NCBI GenBank assembly: GCA_001552775.1
Contig: KQ959260.1
Location: 1,170 to 37,022 of the forward strand
Source of the DNA: Bacteroidales bacterium KA00251
GTDB lineage: Bacteria; Bacteroidota; Bacteroidia; Bacteroidales; Porphyromonadaceae
Direction of reading: 5' to 3'
DNA length: 35,853 bases
Of this stretch, positions 18,867 through 35,853 are shown in pieces (positions within the stretch are counted from its first letter, which is position 1; the number at the start of each line of letters is the position of its first letter). The notes under the pieces were generated by a model. The model was given only the letters and a program-made list of their open reading frames with translations. It had not been told where the DNA came from and made no database searches. The position numbers were made by a program, and so were the translations under genes.

Positions 18867-20342
18867 ATGATTATCAATCTCACCACTATCCTTCTAGTAG
18901 GGTCTATCCTTTTACTCGTAGCCATCCTTTTTAGTAAGGTGGGACACCGCTTTGGTATCCCTGCTCTGTTGCTCTTCCTCTTCACGGGAATGATTTTTGG
19001 TTCTGATGGTTTGGGCCTTCACTTTGAAGATGCCCAAATGGCACAGAATATAGGAGTAGTTGCCCTCTCTATTATTTTATTTACGGGTGGTATGGATACA
19101 AAGCTCTCGGTGATCAAGCCTGTGATTGGTCCGGGCGTAGTGCTTTCTACGGTAGGAGTACTCCTTACAACGCTTTTCACTGGAGGGTTCATTTACTTTG
19201 TCTCGGAGAGTGTATATACCTCCGTTGCCTTGTCGGTGCCCTTTTGCATGCTTATGGCAGCTACAATGTCTTCTACCGACTCCGCTTCTGTTTTTGCTCT
19301 TTTACGAAGTCAGCGTGTACACCTTAAGGAAAACCTAAAACCTATGCTTGAACTGGAGAGTGGTAGCAACGACCCGATGGCCTACATGCTTACCATTGTA
19401 CTGATAGGCTACCTCCAGCACTCCTCTATGAATGGGTGGGAGATGGTACTTACTTTCCTATACCAGTTTAGCATTGGGCTCCTTTTAGGCTTTCTTTTTG
19501 CTAAGCTTCTCTGTTGGTTTATCAATGTTGTCAACATTTCGAATAGAACTCTATATCCGATCCTCGTGCTCAGCGGACTTTTTGCCTGCTATGCCGTATG
19601 CGATCTCATCAAGGCCAATGGTTTCTTGGCGACCTACATCTTTGGAATAGTGATTGGCAACCAAAAGATTGTAAACAGAGGGATCATCAATCACTTCTTT
19701 GACGGTGTCACTTGGCTGCTACAGATTATTCTGTTTATCATGCTAGGACTCTTGGTCAATACGAGAGACATGATCAGTTCAGCTGCCTTAGCTATCCTTA
19801 TTGGAGTATTTATGATGCTAGTGGGAAGACCTTTAGCTGTCTTTCTCTCTCTCCTCCCTTTTAGGAAGATTTCTCTGCGTGCAAAAACTTTTATTTCTTG
19901 GGTAGGACTAAGAGGTGCCGCTCCGATTATCTTTGCTACCTATCCCGTAGTTTCAGACGTACCTCAAGCCAATCTCATTTATGGGATCGTTTTCTTTATT
20001 ACACTGATCTCGCTCTCCGCGCAAGGCATGACTATTACTCCTGTGGCAAGAATGCTGGGGCTCGCAGAACCTGCCCCACCTGAGGGTAGCTTTATCGGGG
20101 TAGAGATTCCCGAAGAAATTGGTGCCGACATGGAAGAGAGAAAGGTCACCAAAGAGATGCTAGAAAAGGGTGCACAGATAAAAGACATTCAATTGAAAGA
20201 AAACGAACTTGTAATCCTCGTCCGTCGTAACGACAAATTCATCGTACCGAAGGGGAGCGTCATCCTCCATGAAGAAGATATTTTACTGATCGTTTCTCCC
20301 AATAAAGTAGAAGAGGGAGAAAGCTCTTCCTTGCTGCTTTAA
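18867..20342 (+). CDS. CPA1-type K+(Na+)/H+ antiporter, NhaP2-like, with TrkA-C domain
   Basis: An inner-membrane monovalent cation/proton antiporter. About 12 transmembrane segments fill residues 3-395, and the transport-site ESGSNDPMA holds the adjacent Asn168-Asp169 pair characteristic of CPA1 antiporters. Another conserved stretch is MAATMSSTDSASVFALLR (130-147). A C-terminal cytoplasmic TrkA-C/RCK-C-like domain (about 410-485, DILLIVSPNK near its end) suggests ligand or nucleotide control, as in the NhaP2/CvrA subgroup. K+ specificity is inferred from this domain layout. It is followed by a terminator disrupted by a palindromic insertion. Confidence 0.92.
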   Translation: MIINLTTILLVGSILLLVAILFSKVGHRFGIPALLLFLFTGMIFGSDGLGLHFEDAQMAQNIGVVALSIILFTGGMDTKLSVIKPVIGPGVVLSTVGVLLTTLFTGGFIYFVSESVYTSVALSVPFCMLMAATMSSTDSASVFALLRSQRVHLKENLKPMLELESGSNDPMAYMLTIVLIGYLQHSSMNGWEMVLTFLYQFSIGLLLGFLFAKLLCWFINVVNISNRTLYPILVLSGLFACYAVCDLIKANGFLATYIFGIVIGNQKIVNRGIINHFFDGVTWLLQIILFIMLGLLVNTRDMISSAALAILIGVFMMLVGRPLAVFLSLLPFRKISLRAKTFISWVGLRGAAPIIFATYPVVSDVPQANLIYGIVFFITLISLSAQGMTITPVARMLGLAEPAPPEGSFIGVEIPEEIGADMEERKVTKEMLEKGAQIKDIQLKENELVILVRRNDKFIVPKGSVILHEEDILLIVSPNKVEEGESSSLLL

Positions 20343-20364: not shown

Positions 20365-20445
20365 AAAACCAATAGGAGACTGTTGCATAAGTCAACAGTC
20401 TCAATAGAGGATATGCGCGCACTTCCTCTATTGGTTTTCTTTTTC
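20365..20445 (+). terminator. Terminator after the antiporter gene, interrupted by a palindromic insertion
   Basis: The outer arms AAAACCAATAG (20365-20375) and CTATTGGTTTT pair, and a T-rich tail follows. Between them lie the palindrome at 20376-20402 and then AATAGAGG (20403-20410), which pairs separately with CCTCTATT (20425-20432). Deleting 20376-20407 would leave a single perfect 14-bp stem, AAAACCAATAGAGG against CCTCTATTGGTTTT, with a 14-nt loop. The ancestral terminator is therefore well supported; how well the present form works is unclear. Confidence 0.85.
20376..20402. repeat. Palindromic mini-insertion, copy 1 (27 bp)
   Basis: Arms GAGACTGTTG and CAACAGTCTC are perfect inverted repeats around the centre CATAAGT. 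AATAG occurs immediately before (20371-20375) and immediately after (20403-20407), a 5-bp direct repeat of the kind left by transposition. A near-identical sequence in the opposite orientation lies at 23920-23947. It may be the shrunken or excised remnant of an insertion sequence; no transposase is in the window. Confidence 0.75.
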
Positions 20446-20478
20446 TACAGAAGTTCCGTCAACGATTTTGACTAAAAT

Positions 20479-21300
20479 TCATTTGAAAAGGATATGCGTG
20501 CTAATCTGTCTTGAACTCGAAAAGTCAAGGTTGAAAAGCATTACACGCACCTTACCTTTTGTCTGACAAGAGGAGTGAGAACTTCTAAGAATTCCTTTAT
20601 GGAGATCCACACGGCTATCAAAGGTGCCTGCTCCTTTATTTTTCAGGTTATTATCATTTTCATAAACCGCAATCGTTCCTTCCAAGATAGCCTCGCTACC
20701 CGCCACTTCTGAAATATGCGAATGGATCAAGTTGCCACTCTCTTCGCGATCACTCCATACCTCTCCTAGGGCTACAGTACGACCGGCATAAGTTGGTCTT
20801 AGGATGTCGCTAATCATTGTAAAGATTCGTTTAGCTATGGGAGTATTGGCATTAGTACCTTTTTCTTTGATGGTGCCTGCAAGTCGAAAATAGGGATCTA
20901 CCTCTACTTGAATGCTTTTTTTAACAATCTCGTATGGGCGAATCAACTCAACGACAGCATCAAAAGCCTTTTTTGAAGCATTTTTAGAACCTTGTACATC
21001 AAGATCTACCTTTGTGACATCACATTGTATCAAAAAGTTCTCCCCCTTCTTTGCCAATACTGAAGTTCTCAGCTGGTAGGTGGCAACAACAGTAACTATT
21101 TGATCGCCTAGCAGGGGAACCTCAGTCTTAGATATACTTTTATCTACTTTCTTAATATATAGTCTATCCCCAGCTTGGAGTTGCATTTTGATATCGTAAG
21201 AGCCCTGTGCAGTAAGCGTAAAAAGAGAAAGGGGCAAAAGGGAAATCAGCATGCCCCAATGTAGCAGTAGTTTTTTTTCAAACAATGAGAGGATTCGCAT
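20479..21300 (-). CDS. Unrecognised secreted protein
   Basis: A 273-residue protein with an N-terminal hydrophobic segment (about 12-31) that should act as a signal peptide ending near LTAQG. No lipobox cysteine is seen. The mature part begins MQLQAGDRLYIKKVDKSIS and is rich in beta-prone and charged segments. This resembles secreted Bacteroidetes proteins of unknown function that start with a similar L-x-x-G-D-x-Y motif (possibly DUF6263-like, a weak guess). It is the only minus-strand gene between 9 kb and the right end of the window. It is divergent from the PCMD lipoprotein gene across the 22-bp repeat array. Confidence 0.7.
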   Translation of the reverse strand: MRILSLFEKKLLLHWGMLISLLPLSLFTLTAQGSYDIKMQLQAGDRLYIKKVDKSISKTEVPLLGDQIVTVVATYQLRTSVLAKKGENFLIQCDVTKVDLDVQGSKNASKKAFDAVVELIRPYEIVKKSIQVEVDPYFRLAGTIKEKGTNANTPIAKRIFTMISDILRPTYAGRTVALGEVWSDREESGNLIHSHISEVAGSEAILEGTIAVYENDNNLKNKGAGTFDSRVDLHKGILRSSHSSCQTKGKVRVMLFNLDFSSSRQISTHILFK

Positions 21301-21597
21301 ATTTGAAGATTGGTTTTAGTTTTCCGATTCTATTCTTTTTCTTTAACCTATCCTTCTATCCTCAAAGTGGCTTCTAAGAGGATTCTCACATACCAGCTTT
21401 GCATAGTATAGCCTCGTCAAGTATCTCTTTTGTTGAATTGCCTGGTGAGACTCTCGGCATATACAAATATACTCTTTTTTATTGAAGTGTACTCTTTCCT
21501 CAATGTACTCAATACGAATACAATATGAGAGTCCTTCTAAAATACCATAATACCAATACCATGAGAAAGGAGTCCGAACCGATCTTTTCCTAAGAAA
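21301..21597. other. AT-rich gap upstream of the unrecognised secreted gene
   Basis: No gene is seen. On the minus strand TATATTTG at 21471-21464 fits TAnnTTTG and may be the -7 box of the 20479-21300 gene, but no -33 box is at the right spacing. An imperfect inverted pair, GACTCTC at 21450-21456 and GAGAGTC at 21527-21533, could form a long-loop hairpin. Confidence 0.4.
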
Positions 21598-21714
21598 AAA
21601 AAGTTCCGAGAGATTTTTGAAAAAGTTCCGAGAGTTTTTGGAAAATGTTCCGAGAGTTTTTGGAAAATGTTCCGAGAGATTTTTAGAAAAAGTTCCGAGA
21701 GATTTTTGGCAAGT
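21598..21714. repeat. Tandem array of five 22/23-bp repeats
   Basis: Units begin with GTTCCGAGAG at 21603, 21625, 21647, 21669 and 21692, spacings of 22, 22, 22 and 23 bp. After the core each unit has a T-tract (usually TTTTTG) and then an A-tract. A decayed sixth unit follows at about 21715. The period is not a multiple of three, so the short open frame running through it is not a real gene. The array ends about 80 bp before the -7 box of the PCMD gene. A second, degenerate array of the same period is at 1-70. Confidence 0.9.
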
Positions 21715-21795
21715 GTTTCAGACGAAACTGACGAGGCGTTCTACTGCACTTTTTCTTTATTCTCTATTTTTTACTCAGATTTTAAGGGAAAGCAT

Positions 21796-21803
21796 TACCT
21801 TTG
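21796..21803 (+). promoter_or_regulatory. -7 box for the PCMD–beta-barrel genes
   Basis: TACCTTTG matches TAnnTTTG, 57 nt before the start codon and just downstream of the 22-bp repeat array. No clear -33 box. Confidence 0.6.
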
Positions 21804-21860
21804 CGCTGTCAAAAGACGAACACCTAGTAACACAGTAATAAGTAAAAACCATCACAAAGT

Positions 21861-22976
21861 ATGAAAGTAACCAACCCAGTTTTTACCAAGATTTTCTTTT
21901 CGTTAGCGATTTTATCGCTTGCTTTTTCCTCCTGTATTAGAAAAGAAGCTGCCAATAAGGAAGCTGATATCCTTAAGGTGGAAGTGGAAGGAGTAAAGCT
22001 GATACGCGATCCTCAGATCACCAACAATGAAGTAACCATGCATGCTCAGGCTGGTGAAAAAGTAACCTCCGTAATCCTCCGTTTTACGCTAAGTAAAGGT
22101 GCCACCATATCTCCAGAGAGTGGTAAACCTCAAGACTTTACAAAACCCGTTATATACACCGTAACTGCGGAAGACAAAAAGACGGAAAAGAAATATGCCA
22201 TTTCCATCCTTCAAGCCCCTAAAAAGGAAGACAAATCTTACACCTTTAGCTTTGAAAACATCCGACTCCAAGAGGGAATATTCCAGGTATTCCAAATCCC
22301 CGCTGAAGTCGGTGTTCTATCCAAAGAATGGGCCACTAGCAACCTTGGCTATGCCCTTTCAGGACAAGCAAAAAAACCTGAAGACTTCCCCGTATCTCAA
22401 TGCAACAATGGCTATAAGGGGAAATGTGCACAACTTACAACAAGAGACACTGGTGAAGCTGGCAAAATGTTTAATGCTCCCATTGCTGCAGGAAGCCTCT
22501 TTTTAGGAGAATTGGATCCAGGTCTCATCGCTGTAACTCCTCTAAAAGCTACCAAGTTTGGTATTCCTTTCCAAGAAGTTCCAACTAAACTTGCAGGATA
22601 CTACAAATATACGGCAGGAGCTAAATACCAAGAAGGATCTAAATTTGTAGAAGGTAAAAAAGATCACTTCGACCTTTATGCTGTACTCTATGAAGTATCC
22701 AAAGAAACTCCCAATCTAGATGGCTCTAACTCGCTCAATAGTAAAAGCATCGTACTGCTCGCTCGACTAGAAAACACCAAAGAAACAGGAGAGTGGACAG
22801 CCTTTGAAATTCCCTTCAAACCTATGAATGGTAAGCAGGTTGATCCTAAAAAACTCAAAGAAGGTGGCTACAACTTATCCATCGTTGCAAGTTCTAGCCT
22901 AGGTGCTGCTAAGTACATGGGCGCTGTAGGTAGTACCCTTCTACTAGACGAGTTGCAATTATTCATCAAAGAATAA
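21861..22976 (+). CDS. PCMD-type lipoprotein (putative carbohydrate-binding)
   Basis: A signal peptide ends in the lipobox LAFSSC, lipidation expected at Cys25. Residues 35-120 form a small beta domain (LRFTLSKGATISPESG then YTVTAEDKKTEKKY), of the kind found in Bacteroidetes surface lipoproteins. From about 125 the protein resembles the PCMD domain: the aromatic start SYTFSFENI, TRDTGEAGKMFNAPIAAGSLFLGEL, a tight GYYKYTAG strand and a C-terminal LLLDELQLF. The family name implies carbohydrate metabolism, but the ligand is unknown. It is followed after 27 nt by a beta-barrel protein, so the pair may work together at the outer membrane. Confidence 0.8.
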   Translation: MKVTNPVFTKIFFSLAILSLAFSSCIRKEAANKEADILKVEVEGVKLIRDPQITNNEVTMHAQAGEKVTSVILRFTLSKGATISPESGKPQDFTKPVIYTVTAEDKKTEKKYAISILQAPKKEDKSYTFSFENIRLQEGIFQVFQIPAEVGVLSKEWATSNLGYALSGQAKKPEDFPVSQCNNGYKGKCAQLTTRDTGEAGKMFNAPIAAGSLFLGELDPGLIAVTPLKATKFGIPFQEVPTKLAGYYKYTAGAKYQEGSKFVEGKKDHFDLYAVLYEVSKETPNLDGSNSLNSKSIVLLARLENTKETGEWTAFEIPFKPMNGKQVDPKKLKEGGYNLSIVASSSLGAAKYMGAVGSTLLLDELQLFIKE

Positions 22977-23003
22977 CAGATTTTCGTCATACCCTCGGTA
23001 AGC

Positions 23004-23768
23004 ATGTTCCGAAAAAGAAAAGTCTACTTCTGTTTAGTGGCCTTGCTACTTTGCTCAAGCTTCGCAAAAGCCAACCCTTTTGACAAACTCCGTCAGAAAG
23101 GCTGGGAAATAGAGGTGAGAGCAGGGGTAAACCTAGGTGGCGTCTCTCCGATACCTTTCCCCGTGGAGATTCGGAAAATTCACAAGCTCAACCCTAAATT
23201 TAATGGTCAGATTGGTCTAATTGCGACCAATTGGCTCAACAAACATTGGGGGCTAGCACTTGGACTTGGTTTTGAACAAAAGGGAATGGAGAGCTTAGCT
23301 AGCGTCAAAGATTATCAGATAGAGATAGCCCAGCAGGGGAATGTACTATCTGGTGCATGGACAGGCAAGGTAAGGAGTAGCTACTCCGCCTCCTACGTTA
23401 CACTACCTATCGTTCTCGTTTACCGTTTCAACTCCTCAATCAAGGTCAATGCGGGCCTTTATGCAGGCTATCGCTTTGAGGGAGACTTTTCTGGCGATGT
23501 CTATGATGGCTACTTTCGCCAAGGCTCTTCCATTGGTGAAAAGATAGATTTCGGAAAAGAGACTAAGACTCCGTATTCGTTCAAAGAATATCTTGCACCT
23601 CTTGAAATTGGCTTTGAGATGGGAGGTAGTGCACAAGTCTTTAAACGATTTCAAATCTTCCTTGACCTCAAGTATGGATTTAACGGCATTTTCAAAGGGA
23701 ATTTTAAAGCATTTCCATTCAAAATGCATCCCGTCTATCTTGGGACAGGGTTTGGCTATCGCTTTTAA
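23004..23768 (+). CDS. Outer-membrane beta-barrel protein (porin/OmpA-like barrel)
   Basis: A signal peptide (about residues 1-23, ending FAKA) is followed by alternating amphipathic strands with many aromatic and Gly residues, such as WGLALGLGFEQKGM, YVTLPIVLVYRFN and VNAGLYAGYRF. The protein ends YLGTGFGYRF, with the terminal Phe typical of outer-membrane barrels. The 254-residue length suits an 8- to 10-strand barrel. No plug or peptidoglycan-binding domain is seen. It is probably cotranscribed with the PCMD lipoprotein and is followed by a terminator. The precise role is unknown. Confidence 0.82.
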   Translation: MFRKRKVYFCLVALLLCSSFAKANPFDKLRQKGWEIEVRAGVNLGGVSPIPFPVEIRKIHKLNPKFNGQIGLIATNWLNKHWGLALGLGFEQKGMESLASVKDYQIEIAQQGNVLSGAWTGKVRSSYSASYVTLPIVLVYRFNSSIKVNAGLYAGYRFEGDFSGDVYDGYFRQGSSIGEKIDFGKETKTPYSFKEYLAPLEIGFEMGGSAQVFKRFQIFLDLKYGFNGIFKGNFKAFPFKMHPVYLGTGFGYRF

Positions 23769-23851
23769 GACCATCTAAGAAGACTAGCTTTAACGAACAA
23801 ACCGACAACCCTTATTAGGGAACTGGCTTTCATCCACAAGAAAATAGTGCT

Positions 23852-23893
23852 GAGCCTTGAAGGGAACTAATCATCCCTTCAGGGCTCTTTTTT
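23852..23893 (+). terminator. Terminator after the beta-barrel gene
   Basis: GAGCCTTGAAGGGA pairs with TCCCTTCAGGGCTC around an 8-nt loop, with one mismatch, and is followed by a six-base T-run. Confidence 0.9.
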
Positions 23894-23919
23894 ATTTATC
23901 TGCTTAAGATACCTCTCTT

Positions 23920-23947
23920 GAGACTGTTGACTTTATGCAATAGTCTC
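23920..23947. repeat. Palindromic mini-insertion, copy 2 (28 bp)
   Basis: GAGACTGTTG and CAATAGTCTC flank the centre ACTTTATG. It matches the reverse complement of copy 1 apart from one inserted T and one C-to-T change. CTCTT occurs directly before (23915-23919) and directly after (23948-23952), again a 5-bp direct repeat and of a different sequence from copy 1's. It lies 27 bp after the terminator T-run, where insertion would be tolerated. Confidence 0.75.
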
Positions 23948-24077
23948 CTCTTCATTGTGGCAAACTTCCTCCATAGATCAAGCAAGTCACTCCGCTCCTC
24001 GCAAGGGGGAATAGCCTCTATATTGACAAATTTGAATAGTACTATACGCACTCGGTGGCATAGTTTGCTATCCGCTG

Positions 24078-35161: not shown

Positions 35162-35235
35162 CCGTCGCATTCACATCTTTAACGCGTCAAGTTGTCAGTC
35201 TCAAATCTGACAAGATTGTGATTGCAGACCTGTAT

Positions 35236-35307
35236 GGCCCTTTCGTCTATCGGTTAGGACGCGAGGTTTTCATCCTCGAAAGAGGGGTTCGATTCCCCTA
35301 GGGGCTA
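35236..35307 (+). tRNA. tRNA-Glu (anticodon TTC)
   Basis: A 72-nt cloverleaf. The acceptor arm GGCCCTT pairs with AGGGGCT (two G-T wobbles). The D-arm is followed by anticodon stem CGAGG/CCTCG around the loop TTTTCAT (anticodon TTC at 35269-35271). The T-arm is AGGGG-TTCGATT-CCCCT and the discriminator is A. CCA is not encoded. The sequence closely follows the E. coli tRNA-Glu plan. Confidence 0.96.
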
Positions 35308-35311
35308 CTCA

Positions 35312-35729: not shown

Positions 35730-35820
35730 AGACAGAAAGCAGAAGAAAAAGCTAGCGATTGAGACAAGGAGTTTTGGATAGTAAAGACTGCATCTCTTCT
35801 CCATTTTAGCTCTTTCACTT

Positions 35821-35853
35821 GGCCCTTTCGTCTATCGGTTAGGACGCGAGGTT
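35821..35853 (+). tRNA. tRNA-Glu (TTC), second copy, cut by the window end
   Basis: The first 33 nt, from the acceptor arm to just before the anticodon, are identical to positions 35236-35268 of the upstream tRNA-Glu. The rest lies outside the window, so completeness and anticodon are inferred. Confidence 0.85.

Follow-up and report, generated by a model that had tools for sequence, protein, structure and literature searches.

Introduction

The closest described relatives of the element reported here are found in Porphyromonas gingivalis. ISPg4, an insertion sequence (IS) of the IS5 family, has the terminal inverted repeats (TIRs) GAGACTGTTGCA and CGCAACAGTCTC, and the TIRs of the miniature inverted-repeat transposable elements (MITEs) MITEPgRS/MITE464 likewise begin with GAGACTGTTGCA on the left and have TGCAACGGTCTC on the right (Table 2 of PMC4596501). 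Thus, MITEs of Porphyromonas with such ends are already known; the usual MITE length is 50-1000 bp (PMC4596501). Here we describe two palindromes, each lying alone between 5-bp direct repeats, in a 35,853-nucleotide stretch of Bacteroidales bacterium KA00251 (C15:1170-37022 of genome G000, which has 1,864,012 bases in 34 contigs). The whole stretch is called the window, and a palindrome that stands alone is called a solo. The 27-bp solo form is not mentioned in the available part of the ISPg4/MITE464 literature (PMC4596501), and none was found in the literature searched, which was covered in part.

Units of comparable size are known from other systems. In the eukaryote Paramecium, solo TIRs derived from Tc1/mariner-type elements occur among the large internal eliminated sequences (IESs), and the authors speculate that recombination joining short direct repeats in palindromic TIRs gives rise to them, comparable to solo long terminal repeats (LTRs) (PMC3464196). 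The minimum excised unit of Paramecium IESs is 26 bp, with a main peak at 26-28 bp, and PiggyMac acts on the short IESs by excision and not by insertion (PMC3464196). Cyanobacterial small dispersed repeats (SDR) have units of about 20 bp and are possibly mobile (PMC2884548), and SDR5 shows precise insertion into HIP1 (PMC4390886). REP/REPIN sequences, too, are short hairpins at dispersed sites, and their mobilization in trans is presumed; they are tied to RAYT enzymes, which have been compared with IS608, and the REPIN unit is a REP doublet, with 71 bp between the 16-mers of the GI doublet (PMC3116915). The original prediction knew of no named element this short and needs a slight correction here, because SDR (PMC2884548) and REP (PMC3116915) are of this size, although of another type.

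Two solo palindromes are members of a large family

Both palindromes of the window are insertions, and a separate 5-bp duplication accompanies each (Table 1). Direct reading confirmed the palindromes and the repeats where they had been predicted. Copy 1 has the architecture GAGACTGTTG-CATAAGT-CAACAGTCTC. Copy 2 reads GAGACTGTTG-ACTTTATG-CAATAGTCTC on the plus strand and GAGACTATTG-CATAAAGT-CAACAGTCTC when reversed, in agreement with the earlier view that it is nearly the same sequence in opposite orientation. Its arms form Watson-Crick pairs at nine of ten positions, with one G-T, and its centre is identical to that in the palindromic end of a MITE in another genome (locus L018).

A pattern of the two arms and a gap gave 47 forward and 45 reverse matches in the window's genome, representing 48 places, and the reversed-pattern control gave 0 and 0. 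The 27-bp consensus GAGACTGTTGCAAAAGTCAACAGTCTC, with at most 3 mismatches, matched 67 times, and its control 0 times. These genome-wide matches with empty controls indicate that the window copies are members of a large dispersed family and that the original prediction was right to set chance aside. Matches with at most 3 mismatches were found in 8 of 26 genomes of the genus, ranging from 1 to 171; G001, which we analyzed further together with G012 and G025, belongs to the genus of the window's genome.

Counts for G000 come from 61 stretches picked around the pattern and consensus matches, and those for G012 from 20 stretches (400 kb of 2.9 Mb) picked for listed palindromes. The palindrome search admitted centres of 5-9 bases, so that shorter or longer leftovers would escape it; one contig scan used an 8-base centre (7 is the commonest) and returned one contig. 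The G000 stretches hold 68 palindromes, 27 of them solo (27-28 bp) and 41 at one end of a MITE of about 175 bp. One of these solos, L086, is probably a MITE, with MITE-like letters beside it that run into a stretch of N; another, L055, sits at a contig end and cannot be classed. G000, G001 and G025 together gave 60 solo hairpins, from which three with unrelated centres (L192, L227 and L231 of G025) were dropped. All 57 remaining family solos have a centre of 7 or 8 bases and are therefore 27 or 28 bp long. The elements of 27 and 175 bp have no coding capacity and are dispersed in many copies; in G001 and G025, 63 of 71 lie outside open reading frames (ORFs) of at least 120 aa, which make up 83% of the DNA examined there.

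A duplication of at least 5 bp flanks 14/27 solos in G000, 4/12 in G001 and 10/21 in G025. For MITEs whose far end was found, the corresponding numbers are 28/39, 15/17 and 17/24 (4 of 135 MITEs had no found far end and were excluded). Both flanks were available for 56 family solos, and exactly matching adjacent 5-mers occur in 24 of them, whereas re-paired flanks gave a mean of 0.64 and a maximum of 6 in 20,000 trials. The duplicated 5-mers are rich in A+T. About half the solos have no exact duplication, and some of these are near misses with one base changed or with an offset. Since about half keep it, the genome-wide lack of duplications that the original prediction had named as evidence against transposition did not appear. 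In G001, two solos with different duplications (L167:8566 and L169:9659) share an alteration that is present in each of the two arms (CTATTG/CAATAG); they may be related copies or result from palindrome correction, and L169:9659 is common to G025 (L195:886).

Very probable origin of the palindromes from a MITE family with ISPg4-type ends

The palindromes almost certainly originate from the MITE family of about 175 bp with ISPg4-type ends in Porphyromonas. The MITE consensus (175 bp, 35-row alignment) consists of the 27-bp palindrome, a 133-bp interior and the far end TTATGCAACAGTCTC. This MITE is also present in G001 and G025, and G012 has a 187-bp relative of the same plan, one of which (L027) ends in TGCAACGGTCTC. 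MITE464 was compared with the 175-bp MITE by TIRs alone; the latter has one palindromic end. The palindrome is inverted in 2 of the 39 G000 MITEs with a found far end. Three MITEs, L074 and L083 of G000 and L184 of G001, have their palindromic end in reversed orientation at its usual place, which resembles a flip of the hairpin.

A full-length ISPg4-like element of 1330 bp, encoding a 371-aa DDE_Tnp_1 transposase, is present in G012. One of its ends is GAGACTGTTGCA, and the other, read inwards, is GAGACTGTTGAAAAAGTC. The arms of the consensus palindrome equal both 10-base ends of this element and the published left TIR of ISPg4 (PMC4596501), and over its outer 18 bases the palindrome has one mismatch to the element end. 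The 5-bp duplications TATTG and AATAG were seen at two of the four IS loci examined in G012, and duplications of the same length flank most MITEs and roughly one in two solos.

Searches with PF01609 and with an ISPg4-like protein gave matches in G000 at C15:81-83 kb and on C21, C26, C29 and C31; neither search matched the window, and other transposase families were not searched. The original prediction was right that insertions with 5-bp duplications here would need an enzyme acting in trans. The remains of ISPg4-like transposases are fragments in G000 (best 41% over 197 positions), two short ones in G001 and none in G025. Autonomous elements with these ends and a 5-bp duplication were sought in 40 stretches of G001 (753 kb), 40 of G025 (795 kb), the 20 of G012 and 30 transposase loci. 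Two were found, both in G012 (L104 and L109), and among the 30 loci returned only those of G012 had such ends on both sides. Because other PF01609 transposases exist (4 matches in G000, 6 in G001 and 22 in G025), another IS could be the mover. In addition, two pieces of 358-386 bp in G000, L050 (C15:77300-78500) and L051 (C15:80400-81600), have the ISPg4-like ends GAGACTGTTGAAAAAGYC and CGTGCAACAGTCTC; no target duplication was seen at them, and short transposase fragments lie nearby at C15:81135 and 82978.

Empty and shared sites between relatives

At one locus, the identity among genomes G001, G021 and G025 is 90-94%. Exact empty sites, in which a relative lacks the element and 5 bp, were found for five solos (27+5 bp) and eight MITEs (Table 1). 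In two of the five solos, L189 and L174, one base of the duplication is changed. A five-genome alignment of L189 showed that G021, G023 and G024 are empty, whereas G001 has a MITE (L167) and G025 a solo. The MITE and the solo have opposite orientations and duplications 2 bp apart, and therefore represent two separate insertions. Five sites are shared, three solo/solo (L169/L195, L179/L195 and L246/G021 L325) and two MITE/MITE (L178/L200 and L187/G023 L163). Because numbers are small and solos are among the polymorphic insertions, solos are not clearly an older class than MITEs.

Several further cases stand outside the exact tally. Three G025 solos (L237:9294, L234:17113 and L235:13179), two G025 MITEs (L236:6598 and L200:15920) and a partial one at L237:11845 are each missing in a relative, but other changes lie close by. 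G025 L231:9279 and L241:12766 have repetitive flanks, and G001 L309/G025 L227 is an unrelated shared hairpin. Most G001 and G025 palindromes lack a usable orthologous pair and hence are in no tally. Thus, the empty sites that had been called for exist for the family in relatives. They were not seen at the two window sites, where orthologues are mostly 66-80% identical over short pieces and too diverged to reveal an empty state.

How the solo form may arise

Two copies alone could not separate a tiny transposing palindrome from the remnant of a larger element, the two possibilities originally put forward. The remnant is favoured, short of proof, because the genome contains the 175-bp MITE with a palindromic end and ISPg4-like termini. 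We lean towards the solo being a MITE that collapsed to its one palindromic end, by slippage or by abortive repair of a cut MITE. An IS5-family transposase would insert the MITE in trans and create the 5-bp duplication. Later, or in repair of the cut MITE, a deletion would fuse the 10-bp direct repeat CAACAGTCTC at 18-27 of the MITE with its second copy at 166-175. This would drop 148 bp and leave GAGACTGTTG-CAAAAGT-CAACAGTCTC with the duplications untouched. In solos with a duplication, one end is kept, the interior and the other end are gone and the duplication is intact, as in a solo LTR; the collapsed palindrome would be the DNA-transposon counterpart of that form. With 27 and 28 bp, the window copies are below the usual MITE length, so we class the solo form as MITE-derived and not as a MITE.

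Two comparisons are in line with this collapse. The solo would keep the far-end arm, so that variants of that arm are expected in solos. The CAATAG variant occurs in 0/77 MITE inner arms, 9/77 far ends and 7/55 corresponding solo arms (p 0.0017 for inner versus solo, 1.0 for far versus solo; inverted MITEs were excluded, and the 55 solos are those left after removal of two orthologous duplicates). Before cleaning and with a stricter far-end match, the counts were 0/77, 8/77 and 9/60. Furthermore, in G012 the direct repeat is interrupted in the 44 of 51 MITEs whose far end is CAACGGTCTC. There, 3 of 55 examined palindromes are solos, none flanked by a duplication, and 38 MITEs have one, versus 28 solos and 60 MITEs with a duplication in G000, G001 and G025 (p 1.2e-5; this test used all solos, the three dropped ones have no duplication, and copies within a genome are not independent).

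Several points weigh against the collapse. The arm test shows that the solo arm is terminal-like, which direct transposition of the solo predicts as well. G012 may lack solos for other reasons, such as a recent burst or a different history, and the 55 palindromes examined there are part of 171. Among 135 MITE palindromes from four genomes, none has the CATAA centre of the window copies; one MITE end of another genome (L018) does. No intact ISPg4-like transposase turned up in G000, G001 or G025, and the search of the G001 and G025 stretches revealed no autonomous element with these ends. None of the five shared sites has a MITE in one genome and a solo at the same duplication in the other, so the same insertion was not seen at full length in a relative. 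In addition, solos make up 5 of the 13 exact polymorphic insertions and 3 of the 5 shared sites. We also considered the window copies as a chimera of a far end and an inverted palindrome; this is weakened by the L018 MITE with the same 28-bp palindromic end.

It is possible, though we consider it doubtful, that the 27-bp palindrome itself transposes. GAGACTGTTG and CAACAGTCTC would be two complete terminal repeats, on which an IS5-family DDE transposase could act directly and make a 5-bp duplication; by analogy with Paramecium, a spacing of 26-28 bp might permit subunit contact without a loop. Five solo sites differ from a relative by exactly 27+5 bp, and the lack of mixed sites and the share of solos among polymorphic insertions also speak for such movement. 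Of the 68 palindromes examined, the window copies are the only two with a CATAA centre, and their distance of 3.5 kb is reminiscent of local hopping. There is a precedent in Paramecium, where the segments cut out by a domesticated transposase have their first and largest size peak at 26-28 bp, which is attributed to direct contact between subunits with no DNA loop (PMC3464196); it concerns excision, however, and not insertion. Moreover, G012 has an intact ISPg4-like transposase, yet no duplication-flanked solo was seen among its 55 examined palindromes, and it has 51 two-ended MITEs, with the inner arm unchanged in 29. If the inner arm served as a substitute end, inner-arm variants would be expected in solos, and they were not seen.

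Imprecise excision of a whole IS or MITE is an unlikely source, although footprints of that kind would explain intact duplications with both arms retained. Footprints should vary in length, whereas all 57 solos are 27 or 28 bp within the centres searched, and a full IS was not seen at an orthologous site, few sites being testable. The same product would result if gap repair of a cut MITE were aborted, and we count this under collapse. Ordinary hairpins, that is, terminators or REP-like functional palindromes beside chance repeats, are a highly improbable explanation. The elements are mostly intergenic, and copy 2 lies 32 bp past a terminator-like hairpin; nevertheless, the excess of duplications over re-paired flanks, the exact empty sites and the near-identical sequence at unrelated places argue against it. 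Insertion points also show no excess of hairpins over the remaining intergenic DNA (median -20.2 versus -20.1 kcal/mol, p 0.71) at 35 intergenic sites, taken from the 46 elements in G001 and G025 whose duplication is at least 5 bp; the rest of these elements lie in ORFs or too close to the end of a stretch. Thus, pattern controls, duplication statistics and folding reject chance and a plain-hairpin origin. A preference for terminators as targets, hinted at by copy 1 and the G025 L189 site, is unsupported by the same comparison. It is still conceivable that palindromes later came to function as terminators.

Setting in the window

Copy 1 lies between convergent ORFs that end at 20342 (+) and 20479 (-). 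When the 27 bp and one copy of AATAG are removed, the joined flanks fold into one long stem with a T-rich stretch behind it (-25.6 kcal/mol, versus -7.6 with standard deviation 2.5 for 200 shuffles). Copy 1 thus interrupts a hairpin that resembles a terminator, and the site supplies an empty-site argument of its own. With the insertion in place, folding is predicted at -34.2 kcal/mol, with the outer stem kept and two hairpins within, and therefore loss of terminator function is not implied.

Two further repeats were also observed in the window. Upstream of the ORF at 21861, a 22-bp unit with the consensus AAAAAGTTCCGAGAGATTTTTGG is present in five tandem copies at 21598-21709. The first 33 bases of the tRNA-Glu gene at 35236-35308, with one preceding base (35235-35268), recur 585 bp downstream at 35820-35853, the window end, where a second copy may begin.

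Table 1. Features around the two window palindromes, and sites of the family that are empty in a relative
Feature	Location	Strand	Basis or relative
Copy 1, solo 27-bp palindrome GAGACTGTTGCATAAGTCAACAGTCTC	20376..20402	+	sequence reading, genome pattern matches (L048)
Left target-site duplication AATAG, copy 1	20371..20375	.	sequence reading
Right target-site duplication AATAG, copy 1	20403..20407	.	sequence reading
Copy 2, solo 28-bp palindrome, minus-strand sequence GAGACTATTGCATAAAGTCAACAGTCTC	23920..23947	-	sequence reading, pattern matches (L049)
Left target-site duplication CTCTT, copy 2	23915..23919	.	sequence reading
Right target-site duplication CTCTT, copy 2	23948..23952	.	sequence reading
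Terminator-like hairpin holding copy 1, between convergent ORFs	20365..20438	+	sequence, ORFs, folding
Terminator-like hairpin of gene upstream, outside the element	23852..23887	+	sequence, 32 bp before copy 2
Solo versus empty	G025 L189:13729		G021
Solo versus empty	G001 L174:9401		G025
Solo versus empty	G025 L228:5142		G001
Solo versus empty	G025 L244:12236		G001
Solo versus empty	G025 L240:9856		G021
MITE versus empty	G001 L167:17864		G021
MITE versus empty	G001 L175:9599		G025
MITE versus empty	G025 L244:8616		G001; one side only 45 aligned bases
MITE versus empty	G025 L191, L206, L238, L240:8919, L242		G021; three also versus G001

Significance

To our knowledge, SDR of cyanobacteria have no IS parent or 5-bp duplication, and we know of no target duplication made by REP/REPIN. 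If direct movement were true, the 27-bp palindrome would be the shortest unit known to us that is inserted with target duplication. The MITE form coincides with assembly gaps, as 13 of the 35 aligned copies contain runs of N. The solos represent a class of 32-bp (27+5) polymorphism in bacterial genomes that is easily overlooked or mistaken for terminators. The five exact empty sites between close species provide a natural system for asking whether a DDE transposase can use ends 27 bp apart. In summary, the family shows how small a transposable element can get while it is still recognizable as an insertion.

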